From IMG/VR virus record IMGVR_UViG_3300043773_000773, positions 1 to 61,604 of that record: a stretch of DNA of 61,604 nucleotides, one strand, 5' to 3'. The translations under genes were made by a program, and so were the position numbers. Of this stretch, positions 46,065 to 59,846 are shown piece after piece. Under the pieces are notes generated by a model, which saw only the letters and a list, made by a program, of their open reading frames with translations, did no database searches and was not told where the DNA came from. Source of the stretch: a virus. The stretch's first letter is position 1. Every line of letters starts with the position of its first letter.

Positions 46065-46451
46065 TCAGAACGGGATCGCGGCCTCTTCGACCTCCTGCGA
46101 CTCCTCAGACGCCTCCGGCATCTCTGGCATCCCGCCAGCCGCCCGACGGGGCCAGCGAAGGCTCCGGCCCACCTCATTTGCCATTAGACGCAATGAGAAG
46201 CCCTGTGAGCCGTCTTTCTTCTGGAACGTCTCCAGAGCCACCCGGCCCGTCACAACGACCCTGTCGCCCTTCTGGAGCGCCTGAGTGACCATGTCAGCCT
46301 GCTCGTCAAAGCAGGCGACCTCCACCCACGTTGTCGGGCCGTCCTTCTTCTCCGTAGACGCCACCGAGAACGTCGCCATCTGCTTGCCGCTACGGGTCGC
46401 CTTCAACTCCGGTGCGCGGCCCACGTTGCCTGTGATTGTTGCCTCGATCAT
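46065..46451 (-). CDS. ssb: Single-stranded DNA-binding protein
   Basis: The 128-residue protein has an OB-fold SSB core: I-T-G-N-V-G-R-A-P-E-L-K, G-K-Q-M-A-T-F-S-V-A-S, W-V-E-V-A-C-F-D-E-Q-A, then V-V-V-T-G-R-V-A-L-E-T-F. A short acidic tail ends in A-I-P-F, the form that recruits partner proteins. It coats single strands during replication and recombination. It starts the leftward transcription unit and sits opposite the rightward early region, with a near-palindrome in between. Confidence 0.9.
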   Translation of the reverse strand: MIEATITGNVGRAPELKATRSGKQMATFSVASTEKKDGPTTWVEVACFDEQADMVTQALQKGDRVVVTGRVALETFQKKDGSQGFSLRLMANEVGRSLRWPRRAAGGMPEMPEASEESQEVEEAAIPF

Positions 46452-46477
46452 CGAACACCCTTTCTATCGGGAGGGGA

Positions 46478-46498
46478 CTATACAGGCGCCCAGTATAG
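46478..46498. promoter_or_regulatory. Near-palindromic CTATAC...GTATAG site upstream of ssb
   Basis: CTATAC (46478-46483) and GTATAG (46493-46498) are perfect inverted arms around a GC-rich centre that contains GGCGCC. On the minus strand TATACT and TATAGT could each serve as -10 boxes. An operator controlling ssb and perhaps the rightward genes is a natural reading. Confidence 0.4.
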
Positions 46499-46720
46499 CG
46501 GGGTGCGCATGTACAGATACCCCCAGAGAAGAGGGGGGCCAATGAAACTGGGAAAAAATCCAGGAGGGGAACGTAATTAACGTGCGCGGCGAGTGGGGGG
46601 GCTCGGGGCTCCCGCGTTCCATCTATACGCAAACCGCGACCGCTCCACGACTTCCGCTTCACGCTCTCCGTCGAGAGGCGGAAACCAGCCCGGCGAACCC
46701 ACGAGAAACGCGGTCCATCC

Positions 46721-46735
46721 CCGATGCGGAGTCTG
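46721..46735 (+). repeat. 15-bp intergenic tag CCGATGCGGAGTCTG, copy 1
   Basis: First of nine copies of the consensus CCG[AC]TGCGGAGTCTG. It lies 58 bases before the ATG at 46794 and is followed by a hairpin with arms ACGACGA (46751) and TCGTCGT (46765). Confidence 0.7.
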
Positions 46736-46793
46736 CATTGTGTCGGAGCGACGACGACGGTCGATCGTCGTGCTACTGACACGGAGCAACGTC

Positions 46794-47009
46794 ATGAGCA
46801 AACCCTGGCACCGCGAGACTTGGATCACCGTCGTCACGAAACCGGGAAAGCGGAACATCGTGTGCGGCCCATTCGACAGCACGCTCGATGCCTGCGACTT
46901 CGTATCGCTCGACTTCGACTACGAAGGCTTCACCCTTCATCCCTCCTATGAAGCGGCCGTCGCTGACGGCACGAAGATGGCGTTCGTTCCCCCTGCGGAA
47001 TCCGCCTGA
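46794..47009 (+). CDS. Unknown 71-residue early protein
   Basis: I start at the ATG at 46794, which has GGAG seven bases upstream, rather than the much longer open frame. The start M-S-K-P-W-H-R-E-T-W-I-T-V-V-T-K and the middle beta-rich segment look like a small folded protein. It ends ...P-P-A-E-S-A. Downstream comes a tag copy three bases after the stop. No family recognised. Confidence 0.55.
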   Translation: MSKPWHRETWITVVTKPGKRNIVCGPFDSTLDACDFVSLDFDYEGFTLHPSYEAAVADGTKMAFVPPAESA

Positions 47010-47013
47010 TTCC

Positions 47014-47028
47014 CCGATGCGGAGTCTG
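47014..47028 (+). repeat. 15-bp intergenic tag CCGATGCGGAGTCTG, copy 2
   Basis: Begins four bases after the stop of the 46794 gene. A hairpin (CGACGGC...GCTGTCG, with inner GGCA/TGCC) follows at 47034-47059. A degenerate second copy, CCTGCGGAATCCG, lies inside the end of the gene. Confidence 0.7.
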
Positions 47029-47089
47029 TCTTTCGACGGCTGGCACGTTGCCGCTGTCGTGTCCCGTTCCTTCCTTCGAGGATCGTCCC

Positions 47090-47269
47090 ATGTTCTGTGT
47101 CGTTCGCATCACGGCATCCGGCGAGCGTCTGGCCTACACGTTCCCCACCGAACGTAAGGCCCGCTGGTACATCAACGACAACTCCGACGGCATCACGCTG
47201 TTCGTGTTGTACGACCCCGACGGTGATCGTGTGGTCGAGACTCGCTTCCCGGTGCTGATGGTGGCCTGA
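47090..47269 (+). CDS. Unknown 59-residue early protein
   Basis: The ATG at 47090 has GAGGA upstream. The product is beta-rich: F-C-V-V-R-I-T-A-S-G, K-A-R-W-Y-I-N-D-N-S-D-G-I-T-L-F-V-L-Y-D, ending V-L-M-V-A. It is one of the cassette genes bounded by tags. No family recognised. Confidence 0.55.
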   Translation: MFCVVRITASGERLAYTFPTERKARWYINDNSDGITLFVLYDPDGDRVVETRFPVLMVA

Positions 47270-47273
47270 TTTC

Positions 47274-47288
47274 CCGATGCGGAGTCTG
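47274..47288 (+). repeat. 15-bp intergenic tag CCGATGCGGAGTCTG, copy 3
   Basis: Begins five bases after the preceding stop. Two hairpins follow: GCGGGG/CCCCGC at 47296-47321 and CCCGC/GCGGG at 47327-47341. Confidence 0.7.
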
Positions 47289-47376
47289 GATGGTAGCGGG
47301 GCTGGCACTTCGCCTCCCCGCCTCCACCCGCACTTCGCGGGATGGTTCGATTGGTTCCTTTCTTGAGGAGATTGCT

Positions 47377-47778
47377 ATGAACGCCGACATGATGAAGAAG
47401 CTGTTCCTGTCCCTGATCGCCGATGCCGCCTCCAGCCCCGTCAAGGCGAAGGGCAAGGCGAAGGGCAAGCGTAAGGGCAACCCCGAAGCCCTTGCCAAGT
47501 GGCGTGCCGAGCAGAAGGGCAAGGCCGCTCCCGCCAAGAGCAAGGCGAAGGCAAGGCCGAAGGCCGTCGAGGTCGAGGAGGTCGAAGGCGTCGAGTGTGG
47601 TGGCGTGGAGTTCCGCAAGGGCAGCGTCACCAAGCAGGGACGCGAGTACGTGCTGATCTACGTGGGCGGTGCCTTCGCTGGGTCGCTCCGCGTCGATGAC
47701 GGCAACCTGCTCAAGGCCGCTCTCGGTGGCTTGAAGCACCGCGATGCCGTCGATGCCATCGAGCTGGCCTGCGAGTGA
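47377..47778 (+). CDS. Lys/Ala-rich early protein (133 aa)
   Basis: The ATG at 47377 follows GAGGAG. Residues 22-66 are a Lys/Ala/Gly-rich low-complexity arm (K-G-K-A-K-G-K-R-K-G type, like histone H1 tails). A Glu/Val segment and a C-terminal folded part with Y-V-L-I-Y-V-G-G-A-F-A-G-S-L follow. The arm could bind nucleic acid, for instance host DNA. The gene is not followed by a tag but by a perfect hairpin at 47803-47833. Confidence 0.6.
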   Translation: MNADMMKKLFLSLIADAASSPVKAKGKAKGKRKGNPEALAKWRAEQKGKAAPAKSKAKARPKAVEVEEVEGVECGGVEFRKGSVTKQGREYVLIYVGGAFAGSLRVDDGNLLKAALGGLKHRDAVDAIELACE

Positions 47779-47802
47779 TCGCAGCCTGACGGTTCACACA
47801 CC

Positions 47803-47852
47803 ACGCCCCGTTGGCTCACCGCTGACGGGGCGTTCGCCTGCACCGTCGCAGG
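47803..47852 (+). terminator. Two hairpins after the Lys/Ala-rich gene
   Basis: ACGCCCCGT (47803) pairs with ACGGGGCGT (47825), and CCTGC (47837) with GCAGG (47848). The second matches the small hairpins of neighbouring cassettes. No T-run follows, so termination may be partial or the stems may protect RNA ends. Confidence 0.5.
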
Positions 47853-47873
47853 TTTCATGTCAGGAGCATCGTC

Positions 47874-48041
47874 ATGCACGAAATGATCGGCAAGCGTATC
47901 TGCTGGGAGTGGCGGAACACCGTCCGGCACGGCGTCGTCTATTCCGTCATCGGATCGGGCGAGCACGAAATGTATCTGGTCATCGCATCTGATGGCGGCA
48001 GAACGGTTGTCGCGTGCCGCATGGCACATGTCACCGCATAG
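47874..48041 (+). CDS. Unknown 55-residue early protein
   Basis: A short gene with AGGAG seven bases before the ATG. The product starts M-H-E-M-I-G-K-R-I-C-W-E-W and is beta-rich with V-V-Y-S-V-I-G and Y-L-V-I-A-S-D-G-G-R. Its TAG stop is followed one base later by a tag copy. Confidence 0.55.
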   Translation: MHEMIGKRICWEWRNTVRHGVVYSVIGSGEHEMYLVIASDGGRTVVACRMAHVTA

Positions 48042-48042
48042 G

Positions 48043-48057
48043 CCGCTGCGGAGTCTG
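48043..48057 (+). repeat. 15-bp intergenic tag CCGCTGCGGAGTCTG, copy 4
   Basis: Starts two bases after a stop codon. Followed by GGGGCTG/CAGCCCC at 48064-48087 and the small hairpin CCTGC-actc-GCGGG at 48092-48105. Confidence 0.7.
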
Positions 48058-48136
48058 GGATACGGGGCTGTGCTGCCAGCCAGCCCCCAATCCTGCACTC
48101 GCGGGAAGTTGACTTCACCACAGAAAGGAAAGGCCG

Positions 48137-48355
48137 ATGACAGACCCATTCGTGATTCTGGAGAGGTATCGCAACGACATCCGCCACTGGAGCCGCATCC
48201 TCTGCGGCGACATCGTTGGGCCGCACGGCTCTCGGGCGTGGCAGGACGTAGCAGCCATGCTGGCGACAGACCTCCGGAGGTACGCCGACTACCTCGACAA
48301 CTGCCGGGAAGGCCATGTCGCTGGGCCGATTGTGTTCCCGTCTTGGGACGATTGA
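48137..48355 (+). CDS. Unknown 72-residue early protein
   Basis: Good AAAGGAAAGG site. A helical N-terminal half (I-L-E-R-Y-R-N-D-I-R-H-W-S-R-I) and a second helix (M-L-A-T-D-L-R-R-Y-A-D-Y-L) suggest a small helical bundle. Ends V-F-P-S-W-D-D. Flanked by tags. No family recognised. Confidence 0.55.
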   Translation: MTDPFVILERYRNDIRHWSRILCGDIVGPHGSRAWQDVAAMLATDLRRYADYLDNCREGHVAGPIVFPSWDD

Positions 48356-48370
48356 CCGCTGCGGAGTCCG
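48356..48370 (+). repeat. 15-bp intergenic tag CCGCTGCGGAGTCCG, copy 5
   Basis: Directly after a stop, with one difference from the consensus. Three hairpins follow: 48378-48399, 48405-48418 (CCTGC/GCAGG) and 48423-48445 with a T-rich run, a good terminator. Confidence 0.7.
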
Positions 48371-48422
48371 GCTCATAGCGGGGAAGGCTGACGCCCCGCC
48401 TTGACCTGCACTCGCAGGACGC

Positions 48423-48456
48423 ACCCATCGCACTTCGCGGTGGGTGTTTTCGTTTC
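48423..48456 (+). terminator. Rho-independent terminator inside cassette 5
   Basis: ACCCATCGC (48423) pairs with GCGGTGGGT (48437) and is followed by GTTTTCGTTT. It lies between tag copy 5 and the ATG at 48479. Confidence 0.6.
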
Positions 48457-48478
48457 CACGCTTCATAAGGAGCTTTCC

Positions 48479-48703
48479 ATGCCCCGTTCCAACGTGTCGA
48501 TCTTCCAGTCCCCCAAGACCCGCCTGTTCTACCTCGTCAACCTCAAGGGCGATGGTGCCGTGCATGGCGGGTACGACAGCGAGAAGGAGGCCCGCGAAGC
48601 CCGCCGCCTCCTGCCTGCCCACGAGGAGTCCTGCCGCACCGTCGAGCGGCTCATCGCCCCGCAGCCCGGCGTGGAGGACGACATCAACCCTCTCGCCCGG
48701 TGA
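48479..48703 (+). CDS. Unknown 74-residue early protein
   Basis: AAGGAG precedes the ATG at 48479. The product has a beta-hairpin-like start (V-S-I-F-Q-S-P-K-T-R-L-F-Y-L-V-N) and a charged helix (S-E-K-E-A-R-E-A-R-R-L-L-P). Tags on both sides. Confidence 0.55.
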   Translation: MPRSNVSIFQSPKTRLFYLVNLKGDGAVHGGYDSEKEAREARRLLPAHEESCRTVERLIAPQPGVEDDINPLAR

Positions 48704-48707
48704 ATAG

Positions 48708-48722
48708 CCGCTGCGGAGTCTG
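48708..48722 (+). repeat. 15-bp intergenic tag CCGCTGCGGAGTCTG, copy 6
   Basis: Five bases after a stop. Followed by a 12-bp perfect stem GCGAACGGGGCC/GGCCCCGTTCGC (48729-48771), the longest in the array. Confidence 0.75.
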
Positions 48723-48793
48723 ACTTTTGCGAACGGGGCCGGTCGTCATGGTGGCGGCTGGCCCCGTTCGCGTTTCCCATGAGGAGCAATGCG

Positions 48794-49177
48794 ATGAAGC
48801 GGGAGGTGATGGAGAAGTGGGTGCATGCACTACGTCACGGCAACTACGGCCAGACGTACGGCTACCTGCGTGAGGAGTCCGACCCCATCGAAGAGCCTGG
48901 AGAGTACGCCTACTGTGCGTTGGGCGTGCTGTGCGATGTGTACGTCAAGGAGCAGTGTGATGGCGACTGGGGATCGCTGTGTCGCCCGCAGTCATACGGC
49001 GAGACGCCCCCTCCTGCCGTGATCGAGTGGGCCGGTCTTTCGTGCCGCGACCCAGATGTGAACGTGACGGCTCACGGCGAAGAAGAACACTACGAAAGCA
49101 TCAGCGAGATCAACGACGCTGGCGTGGAGTTCAGCAAGCTGGCTTCGCTCATCGAGGAGCAGTGGGAAAAGCTGTGA
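48794..49177 (+). CDS. Conserved small phage protein with C-A-L-G-V-L-C-D motif (127 aa)
   Basis: The ATG at 48794 follows GAGGAG. The sequence reads M-K-R-E-V-M-E-K-W-V-H-A-L-R, then Y-C-A-L-G-V-L-C-D-V, a P-P-P-A-V-I-E-W-A-G-L element and F-S-K-L-A-S-L-I-E-E-Q-W. I recall similar proteins in many phages, always without known role. The C-x-L-G-V-L-C-D core with a downstream acidic tail is the likely functional part. It is the largest of the tagged cassette genes. Confidence 0.65.
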   Translation: MKREVMEKWVHALRHGNYGQTYGYLREESDPIEEPGEYAYCALGVLCDVYVKEQCDGDWGSLCRPQSYGETPPPAVIEWAGLSCRDPDVNVTAHGEEEHYESISEINDAGVEFSKLASLIEEQWEKL

Positions 49178-49181
49178 TTCC

Positions 49182-49196
49182 CCGCTGCGGAGTCTG
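49182..49196 (+). repeat. 15-bp intergenic tag CCGCTGCGGAGTCTG, copy 7
   Basis: Four bases after a stop. Followed by a hairpin CCGGCGGCA/TGCCGTCGG at 49205-49225. Confidence 0.7.
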
Positions 49197-49257
49197 TCTC
49201 TTGACCGGCGGCACGTTGCCGTCGGTGGTTCTGTGTCTCTTTCAATGAGGTGTTCCT

Positions 49258-49428
49258 ATGCGTACCCACAACCCCACCCAGTACCCGCGACTCATGCACT
49301 TCGTGTCGCTCAACGCTGCCGCCAAGCAGCTTGGTGCCGCAACCAAGCGGCAGTTCGTGGCCGACCTCCGCACGCTGTCTCACCGTGAGCGGCGGGATGT
49401 TGCCGACCTCGTGAAGAAGGAGGGCTGA
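49258..49428 (+). CDS. Unknown 56-residue early protein
   Basis: TGAGGTG precedes the ATG. The product is basic and helical (A-A-A-K-Q-L-G-A-A-T-K-R-Q-F-V-A-D-L). Followed by the next gene two bases later with no tag between. Confidence 0.5.
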   Translation: MRTHNPTQYPRLMHFVSLNAAAKQLGAATKRQFVADLRTLSHRERRDVADLVKKEG

Positions 49429-49430
49429 AC

Positions 49431-49625
49431 ATGGAGAAGGAGTTGAACTACATGCGAATGGCGTTCTGGGCGGACGCCGCAGACTCAAACGAACCGCTGC
49501 CTCCGGGCTTGGCTGCGTCAATGGCGAACGACCTCGACGCCATCGCCAGAGACATCGCCCTGTTCTATCTGGAAAACGGCAGGTCGCCACACCTTGAGGA
49601 GGGCGGCGCATGCCATTCGTCATGA
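49431..49625 (+). CDS. Unknown 64-residue early protein
   Basis: Acidic helical protein beginning M-E-K-E-L-N-Y-M-R-M-A-F-W-A-D-A. It overlaps the following gene by 16 bases. No family recognised. Confidence 0.5.
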   Translation: MEKELNYMRMAFWADAADSNEPLPPGLAASMANDLDAIARDIALFYLENGRSPHLEEGGACHSS

Positions 49626-49783
49626 CGTACGGCGGCGGCAGATACACCTCCGTCGCGTGGTACCCGACCCATGCGGAAGCACAGGCAGAGTGCGACCGCA
49701 TCAAGCGTGCCGGTTCATGGAGCGGGATGCCGCCCAAAGTTGAACCGGATTCCCCGCAATCCACCGCTGCGGAGTCTGCGTGA
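49610..49783 (+). CDS. Unknown 57-residue early protein ending in A-A-E-S-A
   Basis: Beta-rich start (F-V-M-T-Y-G-G-G-R-Y-T-S-V-A-W-Y), then a charged helix. The last codons run through tag copy 8, giving T-A-A-E-S-A. The gene at 46794 ends the same way (P-P-A-E-S-A), so part of the tag may be coding in origin. The stop overlaps the next ATG by one base. Confidence 0.5.
   Translation: MPFVMTYGGGRYTSVAWYPTHAEAQAECDRIKRAGSWSGMPPKVEPDSPQSTAAESA
49764..49778 (+). repeat. 15-bp intergenic tag CCGCTGCGGAGTCTG, copy 8, inside a gene end
   Basis: Unlike the others this copy lies within the coding end of the 49610 gene and has no hairpin behind it. Its GGAG lies eight bases before the next ATG (49783), so it can act as a ribosome binding site. 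Confidence 0.6.
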
Positions 49784-49905
49784 TGGGCAACAAGTGGAAC
49801 GACCAGTGGTGGACGCTGGTCAAGGCAGAGAAGCACAAGGAGGAGCGTCGTCTTAGGGCGGCACGCAAGAGAGCCAAGCGTGTCGGCCGCATCAGGCAGC
49901 GGTAA
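49783..49905 (+). CDS. Basic 40-residue peptide
   Basis: Starts M-G-N-K-W-N-D-Q-W-W-T-L-V-K and continues as a highly basic helix (R-R-L-R-A-A-R-K-R-A-K-R). Very likely a nucleic-acid-binding peptide. Tag copy 9 follows the stop. Confidence 0.5.
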   Translation: MGNKWNDQWWTLVKAEKHKEERRLRAARKRAKRVGRIRQR

Positions 49906-49908
49906 TCG

Positions 49909-49923
49909 CCGCTGCGGAGTCTG
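49909..49923 (+). repeat. 15-bp intergenic tag CCGCTGCGGAGTCTG, copy 9
   Basis: Four bases after a stop; last of the array. Followed by a clear terminator at 49935-49970. Confidence 0.7.
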
Positions 49924-49934
49924 GTTCATACGGC

Positions 49935-49970
49935 AAGGCCGTCCCAACGTGGGGCGGCCTTTTCTTTTTC
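49935..49970 (+). terminator. Rho-independent terminator ahead of the amidoligase
   Basis: AAGGCCGTCCC pairs with GGGGCGGCCTT (one G-U), followed by TTTTCTTTTTC. It ends the run of tagged cassettes and begins 53 bases before the amidoligase ATG. Confidence 0.7.
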
Positions 49971-49987
49971 ACTGAGGAGACAGGCAC

Positions 49988-51235
49988 ATGCCTACCGAGA
50001 ACACCAACACGGACGAAGTGGTGCGGGATGAGTACGGGTTCGATGAGAACGGCATCCACACCAACGGCACGGAGTTCAACGACGCCGGGTTCGACCAACA
50101 TCACCTTCACCGCGACACGGACACCGAGTTCGATGAGTCCGGCCGCACCATCAACGGAACGCGGTACAACGTCGATGGCTACGACGTCGAGGGCTACGAC
50201 CGCAACGGCTACGACGAGGATGGGTACGACAGTGACGGCTGGGACCGCGACGGCTACAACACCGAAGGCTACGACGCCGACGGCTATGACTGCGACGGGC
50301 AGGACTCGTGCGGCAATACCCGCTGCGACAACGGCGACTGCGACGACGACTACTGTGACTGCCGCACTCGCGGGTCGGACGAACTGCTCGACTCCGATGC
50401 CTGCGTGCTGGAGGAAACACGCTGGTGCCAGTACCGCTACAAGCGGACGGCCCAACTCGTAGCCTTCGAGTTCGAGTGCATCGCCCACGACTGCGCCAAC
50501 GACGGGGCCGAGCGGCTGATGGTGCCGTTCGATGAGGCGTACGACGAACTGATCGGTCACACCGCAGGCTGCGGCTCGATCGCCAAGCACGACGGTAGCC
50601 TGCCGACCGGCAAGGGCGTCGAGTTCGTCACCGTGCCGATGCTTCTCGACGAACACCGGCGCGTGCTGGCGAAGGCATTTCCCGGCGGTCGGCTCGGCGG
50701 CGGGCATGTCAGTGCGTGGAACCACACCAAGTGCGGCATGCACGTGCATCTCAACCGCCGCAGCATGGGCAACCTCACGCTCGGCAAGCTCCTGTGCTTC
50801 ATGCACCAGAGTTGCAACCGCTCCTTCCACATCGACATCGCTGGCCGTGAGACAACCTACGCCAAGTTCCAGGGGCATCGCTCGTTCGTGAGCAACGGCC
50901 TGCCCGTGAAGGCGGATCACGGCGAGAAGTATTCGGCCCTCAACATCAAGCCGCACACCGTCGAGTTCCGCATCTTCCGCCCGTCCACGCAGCTTCCCAC
51001 GATCCTCAAGAACCTGTGCTACTGCCTTGCGGCGCGTGAGTTCTGCGTGAGCGTGTCTGCCATGCGGTCGAGCATCACGTGGCAGGAGTTCCTCAAGTGG
51101 CTCGGCACCACCGATGCCCGGCTCCGCTACCGCGAGCTTGATTCGTGGCTCCGCAACCGGCAGTCGGACTACGGCATGTACTACCGCGCCCACGCCAAGC
51201 CGCTGCCCAAGCCCAAGCCGCTCGGCGCAGCCTGA
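49988..51235 (+). CDS. Amidoligase with an N-terminal D-x-x-G-Y-D repeat domain
   Basis: The 415-residue protein has two parts. Residues 13-105 contain a run of hexapeptides of the form D-x-x-G-[YFW]-[DN], followed by a Cys/Asp-rich stretch (C-G-N-T-R-C-D...C-D-C). Residues 155-400 match the amidoligase (COOH-NH2 ligase) family: A-F-E-F-E-C, G-V-E-F-V-T, C-G-M-H-V-H-L-N, and late T-V-E-F-R-I-F-R. Such enzymes use ATP to join an amine to a carboxyl group of a metabolite or protein side chain. A glutamine amidotransferase lies directly downstream. The Asp/Glu-rich repeats might be its own substrate in cis. Confidence 0.75.
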   Translation: MPTENTNTDEVVRDEYGFDENGIHTNGTEFNDAGFDQHHLHRDTDTEFDESGRTINGTRYNVDGYDVEGYDRNGYDEDGYDSDGWDRDGYNTEGYDADGYDCDGQDSCGNTRCDNGDCDDDYCDCRTRGSDELLDSDACVLEETRWCQYRYKRTAQLVAFEFECIAHDCANDGAERLMVPFDEAYDELIGHTAGCGSIAKHDGSLPTGKGVEFVTVPMLLDEHRRVLAKAFPGGRLGGGHVSAWNHTKCGMHVHLNRRSMGNLTLGKLLCFMHQSCNRSFHIDIAGRETTYAKFQGHRSFVSNGLPVKADHGEKYSALNIKPHTVEFRIFRPSTQLPTILKNLCYCLAAREFCVSVSAMRSSITWQEFLKWLGTTDARLRYRELDSWLRNRQSDYGMYYRAHAKPLPKPKPLGAA

Positions 51236-51281
51236 TCCTCTCGTCCCTTCATCCTTTCATCTCTCCACAGGAGCAATCCAC

Positions 51282-52196
51282 ATGTGCCTTGCAATCCACA
51301 AGCCCGCCGAGACTCGCCCCGACTGGATCGCCTACGCCAACGGCTACCGCAGCAACCCGCACTCGTGGGGCTTTGCCGCAATCCACGACGGACACCTCGT
51401 TGTCATGCACGGACTCGGCTCGTTCGATGAGTTCCGCCTCGCCTTCGAGCCGTATGCCGACTGCCAAGCCATCATCCACTACCGATGGGCCACGCATGGC
51501 AAGACCGACCTCGACAACTGCCACCCGTTCATGGTCAGCAACAGCCTCGCCATGATCCACAACGGCATCGTCAGCATCGAACGCAACGTGAACAGCGACC
51601 GCTCCGACACGTGGCACTTCAACGAGCTAATCCTCAAGCCCATGCACGAGCGCGACCCGGACTTCTTCCTGCGTGGCGACATGATCTACACGCAGGAGAT
51701 GGCTCACGCCGACAGCAAGTTCGTGTTCCTCCGGGCCGACGGCGACTTCGCCATCTGGAACAGCGGCGAGGGTGAGGTTGCGGCCGACGGCCACTGGTAC
51801 AGCAACTCTTCGCACAAGTCGCTGGCCCGCATCGGCTACGCGACCAGCAAGTACACGGACTCGACTGGCTGGCGCGACATGTCGCCCAGCGCCCGCTCCC
51901 CGCTGACGTACGCCAGCCGCAAGGCAGACGATGCCGACCGGCGGTACGAGCAGGACGACCTCATCGGCGGCTGCTCGCTCGAGGCCAGCGTCGAGCCGGA
52001 GACTGGCGTCACGCTCATCCGCGACCCGTACTACGGCGAGTACGACCCGATCGAGCATGCCGACGACGACGAGGAGCAACTGGCCGACATGATGTGGTCC
52101 GACCTCCGCACCTATGGCATCTCATCCGGGACGCTCAAGGAGGTCTACCACATGTTCGGCAACTGGGGCATCCAGGCTCTGTACGACTGCATGTAA
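51282..52196 (+). CDS. Class II glutamine amidotransferase
   Basis: The ATG at 51282 (CAGGAG upstream) places Cys2 (M-C-L-A-I) as the N-terminal nucleophile after Met removal. The class II motifs follow: G-F-A-A-I, R-W-A-T-H-G-K, N-C-H-P-F, and I-H-N-G-I. The C-terminal half is acidic and unique. These Ntn enzymes release ammonia from glutamine. Next to an amidoligase, this pairing has been predicted elsewhere to supply amino groups for a ligation reaction. The partner and product in this phage are unknown. Confidence 0.8.
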   Translation: MCLAIHKPAETRPDWIAYANGYRSNPHSWGFAAIHDGHLVVMHGLGSFDEFRLAFEPYADCQAIIHYRWATHGKTDLDNCHPFMVSNSLAMIHNGIVSIERNVNSDRSDTWHFNELILKPMHERDPDFFLRGDMIYTQEMAHADSKFVFLRADGDFAIWNSGEGEVAADGHWYSNSSHKSLARIGYATSKYTDSTGWRDMSPSARSPLTYASRKADDADRRYEQDDLIGGCSLEASVEPETGVTLIRDPYYGEYDPIEHADDDEEQLADMMWSDLRTYGISSGTLKEVYHMFGNWGIQALYDCM

Positions 52197-52230
52197 TTCC
52201 CCGCCACACACCCACGCAAGGAGGCGTGAC

Positions 52231-52305
52231 ATGAACCCAGACCAGAGGGAACTGGTGCTGATTCTGATCCGGCTGATTTTGGAACTGCTTACGGCGTCAC
52301 GCTGA
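52231..52305 (+). CDS. Very small hydrophobic peptide (24 aa)
   Basis: A 24-residue frame with AAGGAGG six bases before its ATG. The middle V-L-I-L-I-R-L-I-L-E-L-L is an amphipathic or membrane-binding helix. It may be a leader peptide, a small toxin-like peptide, or an inessential ORF. Confidence 0.4.
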   Translation: MNPDQRELVLILIRLILELLTASR

Positions 52306-53560: not shown

Positions 53561-53811
53561 TGGGATCGTTCACTGTTCTTGTTTCCAATATCTCCGATTA
53601 CTGGGAGGTGCGTGACGAAGATGGCGATCTGGTTGCCGACTACGTTCCGGCCAGCGACATAGCCAAGCTGTTCGCTGCTGCCCCTGAAATGCTGGAGGCA
53701 CTCAAGTCTGTCGCCAGCAAGCACTCGCATATTGAGACAGCCAATATGCCCGAATGGCTTGACGCTGTTGAAGATGCCATCGCCAAAGCAGAAGGGAGGG
53801 GCGATGCCTAG
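53560..53811 (+). CDS. Small acidic protein with A-A-P-E-M-L-E-A-L helix (83 aa)
   Basis: The ATG at 53560 overlaps the preceding stop (TGATG). An N-terminal beta-hairpin is followed by a helix F-A-A-A-P-E-M-L-E-A-L-K-S-V and a C-terminal helix. This E-M-L-E-A-L type is common in phage accessory proteins without known function. Overlaps the LexA-like start by eight bases. Confidence 0.55.
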   Translation: MGSFTVLVSNISDYWEVRDEDGDLVADYVPASDIAKLFAAAPEMLEALKSVASKHSHIETANMPEWLDAVEDAIAKAEGRGDA

Positions 53812-54160
53812 CGTCACGGACCGGGAGCGTGCGGTCCTGCATCTGATCGCACGCTCCATCGAATCGAGCGGATGCCAGCCGTCGTACCGGGACATAGCCC
53901 AGCACTTCGGATGGGCCAGCCTCAACTCGGTGGCGCAGGTTTCTCGCAGCCTGCGCAAGAAGGGCGTGGTCGCCATTGAAGGCGCCCGCGCATGGTCGTT
54001 TGAGTGGACGAACTACCTCAAGGAGACAAGCAATGACGCTGAAGGAACTGATGGATCGTGTTCTCGCCATGCTTCCCGATGCCATGTTCGACGAGACGGG
54101 CGACGGGGAGGTGATCGTCATGACCGGCAAGCGCGCTCACCCAGAGGAGGACTGGAATGA
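53804..54160 (+). CDS. Winged-helix regulator resembling the LexA DNA-binding domain
   Basis: I start at the ATG at 53804. The first 70 residues read V-T-D-R-E-R-A-V-L-H-L-I-A-R-S-I-E-S-S-G-C-Q-P-S-Y-R-D-I-A-Q, matching the LexA N-terminal winged helix. There is no Ser-Lys peptidase domain, so it would not self-cleave. The last 45 residues overlap the next gene in another frame and look unstructured, so the natural protein may end earlier. It could control the early operon or the lytic/lysogenic choice. Confidence 0.65.
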   Translation: MPSVTDRERAVLHLIARSIESSGCQPSYRDIAQHFGWASLNSVAQVSRSLRKKGVVAIEGARAWSFEWTNYLKETSNDAEGTDGSCSRHASRCHVRRDGRRGGDRHDRQARSPRGGLE

Positions 54161-59105: not shown

Positions 59106-59846
59106 ATGCCTATCGTCTATGCCTACGGTCGCGCCAGTACCGGGCGTCAGACCATCACCGAATCGCACCAGCGGGCCACGTGCGAAGAGCACATCCAGCG
59201 GGCAATCCTCCCCGCCGGGTTCACCTACGGCGGCTGGCTCTATGACTCAGCCACCAGCGGCAGCAAGCCCATGTTCGAGCGGGACGAGGGCCGCAAGCTG
59301 TGGGCACTCGTCCAGCCAGGAGACAAGATCGTGTGGGCCAAGCTCGACCGTGCATTCCGCTCGGTCGTGGACGCAGCCCAGACGATGGCGCTGCTGCACC
59401 GCAAGGATGTGACGTTCTCGTCGCTGGACTTGGGCCTCGACACCAGCACGCCGATCGGTAGGTGCGTGTTCACTATCCTGTCTGCGTTCGCAGAGCTAGA
59501 GCTTGAGTTCATCCGGCAGCGCACCCGCGATAGCCTTCGCGCCAAGCGGGCCGATGGCAAGCCGTACAGCAAGCACGCCCCCATCGGCTGGAAGAAGATC
59601 GGCACCGGCAAGGACTCGTACTACATGCCAGACCCGCTCGAGAGGTCGCAGGTAGCCGAGATGCTGGCCCTGCGGCAGTCTGGCGCCAGCCTGGAGCGCA
59701 TCACCAATCACATGTACAACGTGACGCGCAGCAACGGCAAGCGGTGGAACATCAACTCCATCTCGCAGGCGCTCAGGGCAGCAAAGGCTCGCTTTGCAAA
59801 AGAGTTTGCAGCATCTCCAAAGCGGCGGCGAGCCGTCGCCGTATAG
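59106..59846 (+). CDS. Serine recombinase (resolvase/invertase type)
   Basis: AAGGAG precedes the ATG. The catalytic domain starts Y-A-Y-G-R-A-S-T-G-R-Q, with Ser11 as nucleophile. It continues with the conserved L-D-R-A-F-R-S and the R-x-R motif in F-I-R-Q-R-T-R. A C-terminal part with R-R-R-A-V-A is basic. Total length 246 is short for a large serine integrase and fits resolvases or invertases. The 3' end overlaps the minus-strand sigma gene by 74 bases. With the tyrosine integrase at 13.8 kb the phage has two recombinases. Confidence 0.85.
   Translation: MPIVYAYGRASTGRQTITESHQRATCEEHIQRAILPAGFTYGGWLYDSATSGSKPMFERDEGRKLWALVQPGDKIVWAKLDRAFRSVVDAAQTMALLHRKDVTFSSLDLGLDTSTPIGRCVFTILSAFAELELEFIRQRTRDSLRAKRADGKPYSKHAPIGWKKIGTGKDSYYMPDPLERSQVAEMLALRQSGASLERITNHMYNVTRSNGKRWNINSISQALRAAKARFAKEFAASPKRRRAVAV

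Follow-up and report, generated by a model that had tools for sequence, protein, structure and literature searches.

The viral DNA considered here is IMG/VR record IMGVR_UViG_3300043773_000773, positions 1 to 61,604 (hereafter the window, 61,604 nucleotides). Between positions 46,721 and 49,970 it carries an array of small genes, all on the plus strand, punctuated by nine copies of a 15-bp sequence, the tag. All nine positions given in the original prediction are correct: the plus strand of the window has eight exact copies of CCG[AC]TGCGGAGTCTG and one copy with a single mismatch (at 48356, ..TCCG), and no further copy with at most one mismatch occurs on either strand of the whole 61.6 kb. 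Chance does not account for this repetition, as the shuffling control named in that prediction gives a mean of about 0.03 copies with at most one mismatch in Markov-shuffled window sequence.

Tags, leader hairpins and genes of the array

As had been proposed, seven tags start 0-4 nt past a stop codon (47014, 47274, 48043, 48356, 48708, 49182 and 49909). Of the other two, one lies ahead of the first array gene (46721) and one is read in frame as the last codons of the gene before it (49764). The features are as follows.

46721..46735, +: tag 1 (CCGATGCGGAGTCTG), ahead of the first array gene; the same place is tagged in related phages
46742..46780, +: leader hairpin of unit 1; the transcript is predicted to start at base 46742, the pyrimidine-purine (YR) step TG lying at 46741-46742
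46794..47009, +: gene 1, 71 aa, no assigned function; its C-terminus, ..PPAESA*, resembles a decayed in-frame tag at 46990
47014..47028, +: tag 2 (CCGATGCGGAGTCTG), 4 nt past the stop codon
47035..47058, +: leader hairpin 2, apex CA-CGT-TG
47090..47269, +: gene 2 (family F8), 59 aa
47274..47288, +: tag 3 (CCGATGCGGAGTCTG)
47296..47341, +: leader hairpins 3; main stem 47296-47321, then CCCGC-ACTTC-GCGGG at 47327-47341
47377..47778, +: gene 3 (family F3), Lys/Ala-rich; the start at 47377, with Shine-Dalgarno (SD) sequence GAGGAG, is favoured over 47290
47874..48041, +: small gene, 55 aa; untagged, with a hairpin ahead of it
48043..48057, +: tag 4 (CCGCTGCGGAGTCTG)
48064..48087, +: leader hairpin 4
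48137..48355, +: gene (family F13), 72 aa
48356..48370, +: tag 5 (CCGCTGCGGAGTCCG), with one mismatch, directly behind the stop codon
48378..48447, +: leader of unit 5 with three hairpins; 48378-48399, CCTGC-ACTC-GCAGG at 48405-48418, and a terminator-like hairpin at 48421-48447
48479..48703, +: gene (family F15), 74 aa
48708..48722, +: tag 6 (CCGCTGCGGAGTCTG)
48729..48771, +: leader hairpin 6, about 20 pairs, apex CA-TGG-TG
48794..49177, +: gene (family F16), 127 aa
49182..49196, +: tag 7 (CCGCTGCGGAGTCTG)
49203..49226, +: leader hairpin 7, apex CA-CGT-TG
49258..49428, +: gene (family F0), 56 aa, shared by the majority of the tag arrays examined
49764..49778, +: tag 8, read in frame as the last codons of the gene before it (..TAAESA*) and lacking a hairpin; an ATG follows 4 nt downstream
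49909..49923, +: tag 9 (CCGCTGCGGAGTCTG)
49935..49961, +: leader hairpin 9, terminator-like with TTCTTTTT tail, apex CA-ACG-TG; ahead of the amidoligase-like gene
49988..51235, +: gene of unit 9 (family F6), on inspection a distant amidoligase-like protein; its PHROG has no known function

The near-invariant core, CCG[CA]TGCGGAGTCTG, is accompanied by weaker positions at fixed spacing, namely T at -3, T at +17, Y at +20 and R at +21, although one cluster contributes most of the copies, which makes the weighting of these flanking positions coarse. The Y and R correspond to a YR step that is preceded by a T-rich stretch and at which the leader hairpin begins. It stands at offset 20 in 121 of the 141 distinct contexts (86%), compared with 4-35% at other offsets.

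A hairpin follows within about 25 nt of eight of the nine tags, tag 8 being the exception. In the stem at 48729-48771, the 12 perfect pairs noticed originally extend to about 20 when G-U pairs are counted, and the two terminator-like hairpins with T-runs (48421-48447 and 49935-49961) were likewise borne out. The second small hairpin, CCYGC-N-GCRGG, was thought to recur in several units; it is well formed in those of the tags at 47274 and 48356 and imperfect in that at 48043. Among distinct leaders of related phages, 75 of 108 (69%) contain a strong hairpin, versus 14% of random array windows, and the 5' base of the best hairpin peaks at tag positions 20-24 (51 of 108). A terminator-like form with a T-run occurs in 27 of the 108 (about 25%), those of the amidoligase-like gene included, compared with 2% of control windows. 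Strong hairpins near tags also favour a CA-NNN-TG triloop apex, which is found in 23 of 39 such hairpins and in 22 of 1355 elsewhere in six genomes, a preference whose p-value is inflated by descent from common copies. In two leader alignments, changes on both sides of the stem keep the pairing at 5 of 12 and 3 of 6 pairs, so that the leader hairpin probably acts in a single strand.

Leaders follow the downstream gene more closely than the upstream one, though not strictly: they are similar in 49% of cases where only the downstream gene is shared, in 35% where only the upstream gene is shared and in 13% where neither is, and the leader of unit 6 precedes different genes across phages. The first leader of the array starts with GTGTC[GA]G or a similar sequence, including in relatives that have other tags. 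The three-hairpin leader of unit 5 (48356-48479, with ACTC/ACTTC loops and the terminator-like hairpin last) recurs ahead of different small genes in related phages and is a possible attenuator.

The in-frame tag encodes the C-terminus AESA* at 46990-47009 and 49764-49783. At tag 8 the ATG follows after only 4 nt, so that the GGAG of the tag may itself serve as SD sequence. In three related genomes (G003, G009 and G013) a longer gene contains the tag, as would follow from a fusion of genes across it. An upstream arm, GATTCC..GGAGTC, was considered as a way for the tag to form a hairpin of its own; one G005 variant with C at position 9 retains the T at -3, so there is no compensation in that variant, and on this one case the idea was set aside. 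Upstream of the array, between the gene for SSB and tag 1, lies a single-copy element at 46549-46615, GGGAAAAAATCCAGGAGGGGAACGT...GGGGGGGCTCGGGG, which recurs in relatives of differing tag type without any change of orientation relative to the array; it is a candidate origin or main early promoter.

Conservation and replacement of the tag in related phages

Searches of related contigs, which had been suggested as a check together with a comparison of gene content between tags, recovered the tag in 20 IMG/VR records with 4-14 copies each at no more than two mismatches, nearly all on one strand; a reversed control pattern gave 0-1 matches per strand in the same records. Among the matches listed in the IMG/VR scan there are many contigs with a single copy, as well as contigs with many. 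In 13 arrays, with genes called by a simple custom gene caller, tags occupy 104 of the 119 intergenic gaps of at least 45 nt and 12 of the 98 shorter ones, which indicates that tags open most of the blocks that resemble transcription units, each consisting of one to about ten tightly packed genes. Gene neighbours do vary more across tags than elsewhere: counted over pairs of genomes, tagged junctions have a right (left) neighbour of the same family in 39% (28%) of cases, and untagged junctions in 61% (71%).

Within a genome, tag copies agree at their variable positions more than expected (p < 1/2000). Thus, tags of L298 have ..TCCG nearly throughout, and those of L312 read CCGATCCGG. Such homogenization within a genome is what one trans-acting reader per genome would be expected to produce. 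Relatives with 55-58% identity in the MoxR-like ATPase carry a different tag in the same place, as listed here.

L318: CCCCTTGTTTTCAGGGGTCGGCGAGTT..
L319: CCCTTGTTTTCAAGGGCCGGCGATTACC..
L321: similar to L319
L322: TTTCAGGCACTGGAGAACATC..

In these relatives all 19 copies have a YR step, 10 or 11 nt past a GG, the distance being constant in each genome. In the A lineage the spacing is 11 nt, and the order GG, YR, leader is common to all lineages. That the tag is replaced while this layout is retained speaks for a reader acting in trans at set distances, as initiation or cleavage would require. A wider search with the F5 profile found no additional tag lineage.

Possible functions of the tag cassette

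We favour, at about an even chance, a reading in which each tag is a promoter-like core, the transcript starts at the base of the hairpin, and tag, hairpin and ribosome binding site form a portable cassette. The tag would be the sequence-specific core of a small phage promoter, and transcription would probably start at the YR step, 20-21 bases from where the tag starts, at which point the hairpin begins. The predicted mRNA would consist of the hairpin, in most units a pyrimidine-rich stretch, the SD sequence and the gene, a layout comparable to that of the T7 gene 10 leader. Repeated ahead of blocks of one to several small early genes, the cassette may stabilize mRNA through its leader hairpin and may be read by a trans-acting factor, such as the RNA polymerase of the host combined with a specificity protein from host or phage. 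As a short shared homology, it would also mark points of exchange of gene modules. Of the roles originally suggested, that of promoter is preferred because of the fixed-distance YR step at the hairpin base and the spacing of 10-11 nt kept in lineages with other tags. A phage sigma factor as the reader is not supported, none being found, and the same goes for a phage RNA polymerase. More tentatively, the cassettes may constitute a start system that lacks a recognizable phage polymerase or sigma factor, in which a lineage-specific factor reads the tag and the tags are replaced in concert while the geometry and the triloop apex are kept.

Several observations weigh against promoter function. Percentages computed over tag copies overstate the evidence, since related phages do not contribute independent copies. 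Tags are absent from the left, structural arm. A scan of 46400-52300 gave no sigma-70-like site, the tags have no sigma-70-like hexamers, and terminator-like leaders with T-runs would be unexpected immediately after a promoter. Neither an RNA polymerase nor a sigma factor nor an antiterminator family was recognized in the window, where the PF00940 search matched no control genome either; as that search had no positive control, a divergent phage RNA polymerase is possible. The helix-turn-helix proteins F4 and F10 (the latter LexA-like) were rejected as tag readers, as their recognition helices vary and the tag is constant.

Other candidates were also set aside. By eye and by site scan, the tag does not fit the sigma-54, extracytoplasmic function (ECF) or sigma-70 consensus. 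A reading as integron attC site or iteron was set aside on inspection, as there is no attC core and the A-lineage tag lacks a long dyad. The 1152-aa protein was considered as an N4-type virion polymerase; it has no sequence match in PDB, one homologue has a weak match to LPD38, and its structure model is all-helical and of low confidence. Among the proteins kept in all lineages sampled are SSB, the MoxR-like ATPase, a VWA protein, a DUF6744-like protein, the winged helix-turn-helix (wHTH) protein F4 and a small serine recombinase (59106-59846, 246 aa), which is highly conserved.

Tag and hairpin could instead act in RNA as an antitermination or pause site, of the type of lambda nut (boxA and boxB) or HK022 put, where polymerase from an upstream early promoter would read all units and the tag RNA with its hairpin would let it pass the terminators between them. 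The position of the tags directly 5' of hairpins, the excess of terminator-like forms among these and the conserved CA-NNN-TG apex, which suggests an RNA-binding partner, are all consistent with such a site; the tags of relatives are dyads (e.g., CCCTTGTTTTCAAGGG), the sole promoter might be the lone conserved element ahead of tag 1, and the YR step resembles part of the elemental pause consensus. However, a modified polymerase normally needs one site per operon rather than nine, the majority of leader hairpins lack a U-tract, and in this lineage the tag alone forms a weak hairpin at most. Moreover, order and sequence differ from boxA/boxB, and no N-like or Q-like protein was recognized. Rfam gave no match (best E 0.21, to an unrelated small RNA), and no N-like family was matched. 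We regard antitermination as unlikely. Less likely again is RNA processing, another of the originally suggested roles, in which an endonuclease would cut polycistronic early mRNA 5' of each hairpin and leave a protective 5' hairpin, in the manner in which RNase III processes T7 early RNA. It would agree with the constant spacing of tag and hairpin base across lineages that differ in their tag, with the tags just past stop codons and with the pair-conserving changes in leader hairpins, but known general RNases act without requiring a near-invariant sequence of 15 nt, and a genome-wide switch of tags would demand a dedicated nuclease in each lineage, none of which was found.

At the DNA level, the tags might be stoperators or operators, each copy bound by a phage repressor that blocks elongation, as in cluster A mycobacteriophages. 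Like stoperators, they are short, asymmetric, intergenic, numerous, of one orientation to transcription and lineage-specific in sequence (compare PMC9283540), and the phage encodes a LexA-like wHTH protein (53804-54160) and the small serine recombinase. We nevertheless hold this improbable, since the sites are confined to the early rightward region, the fixed YR step and the hairpin would be left unexplained, no large serine or tyrosine integrase was seen, and no repressor with constant recognition residues was found. As possible repressors, only the LexA-like protein and a weak wHTH protein were recognized. Very improbable, finally, is integron-like shuffling of cassettes at tags serving as recombination sites of the small serine recombinase. 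Its presence in every lineage sampled and the reduced conservation of neighbours across tags fit this reading, but leader and gene are separated as well in some relatives, so that breaks are not confined to tags; the A-lineage tag has no dyad typical of serine recombinase sites, direct repeats would delete the array, and the Erf-like annealase and RecE-like exonuclease encoded by the phage could recombine such short homologies. The original suggestion that tags are recombination seams is in agreement with the neighbour statistics, but seams of this kind are probably a consequence of short shared homology at unit boundaries and not what the tags are for.

Known dispersed repeats, relatives and host

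Promoters of T7-type single-subunit polymerases have a compact core and a T-rich stretch before a purine start, followed in the RNA by a 5' hairpin, a U/C-rich stretch and the SD sequence. The tag unit resembles them in its core, T-rich stretch, purine at fixed distance, hairpin, U/C-rich stretch and SD sequence; it differs in that the tag sequence is unrelated and that no gene for such a polymerase was found in the phage, in searches whose PF00940 profile matched no control genome and with a poor structure model of the 1152-aa protein.

The promoter/stem-loop (PeSL) cassettes of T4-like myoviruses (Arbiol 2010, Comeau 2014, as cited in PMC4503421) combine early promoter and terminator motifs. 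The likeness lies in a short regulatory motif with a stem-loop among small, variable early genes; the tags, too, mark modules of such genes that are shuffled. Unlike PeSLs, the array has no sigma-70-like sequence and the tag sits ahead of the hairpin; the phage itself is podovirus-like in its structural genes and has no T4 relatives (none close in INPHARED). The original prediction of an unrelated analogue of PeSLs is upheld, with the tags forming a family-wide, non-random and strand-specific punctuation of small early genes.

Start-associated sequences (SAS) and their extended form (ESAS) in cluster K phages are 13-bp asymmetric repeats present in 11-19 copies, mostly in one orientation, in the non-structural half of the genome, some of them with inverted repeats (PMC3203893, PMC12699233). 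The SAS consensus, GGGATAGGAGCCC, lies 3-7 bp ahead of start codons (PMC3203893). Tags similarly have one orientation and are confined to non-structural genes, but they lie past stop codons and mostly 50-100 nt before the start, neither the SAS consensus nor its position is found, and their hairpin is downstream, variable in sequence and backed by paired changes. L5-type stoperators of cluster A are numerous short asymmetric intergenic sites whose orientation is tied to transcription (PMC9283540). Tags share the asymmetry, the single orientation relative to transcription, the intergenic location and the number, and differ in their restriction to one operon, in the fixed YR step and hairpin, which have no counterpart in L5, and in that no repressor was identified. 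In kind, the tag cassette belongs with the dispersed phage regulatory repeats (PeSL, SAS/ESAS, stoperators), of which it is a variant. It falls outside PeSLs and SAS, because each of these has a feature that was looked for here and is absent; judging from sequence, it may work in the manner of PeSLs, SAS/ESAS or L5 stoperators without necessarily being any of them. If the favoured reading is true, these phages offer a natural experiment in which the specificity of a regulatory signal changes at about ten sites together, and an example, beyond T4-like phages, of expression cassettes that double as boundaries of gene exchange.

In INPHARED, the array has no DNA relative and the portal, capsid and 1152-aa proteins have no protein relative; the terminase has matches only at 22-23%, in Arthrobacter phages, and the podovirus-like character of the structural genes comes from a match to an internal virion protein. 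The tag also characterizes a phage group, and no close cultured member of that group turned up in this analysis. In bacterial contigs and six whole genomes the tag occurs in single copies, as chance predicts. The capsid query gave one match in 392 Planctomycetota genomes, and none in 396 Actinomycetota genomes or in 388 genomes from the phylum to which a Verrucomicrobiaceae metagenome-assembled genome belongs. A planctomycete host for this phage group is a plausible inference. The planctomycetote locus L363 (G401:C14) is a provirus-like region with distant relatives of the capsid, terminase, portal, 1152-aa protein and serine recombinase.

The gene of unit 9 (49988-51235), for which Pfam gave no match, adjoins a class II glutamine amidotransferase-like gene (51282-52196), and the pair is retained in most related arrays.

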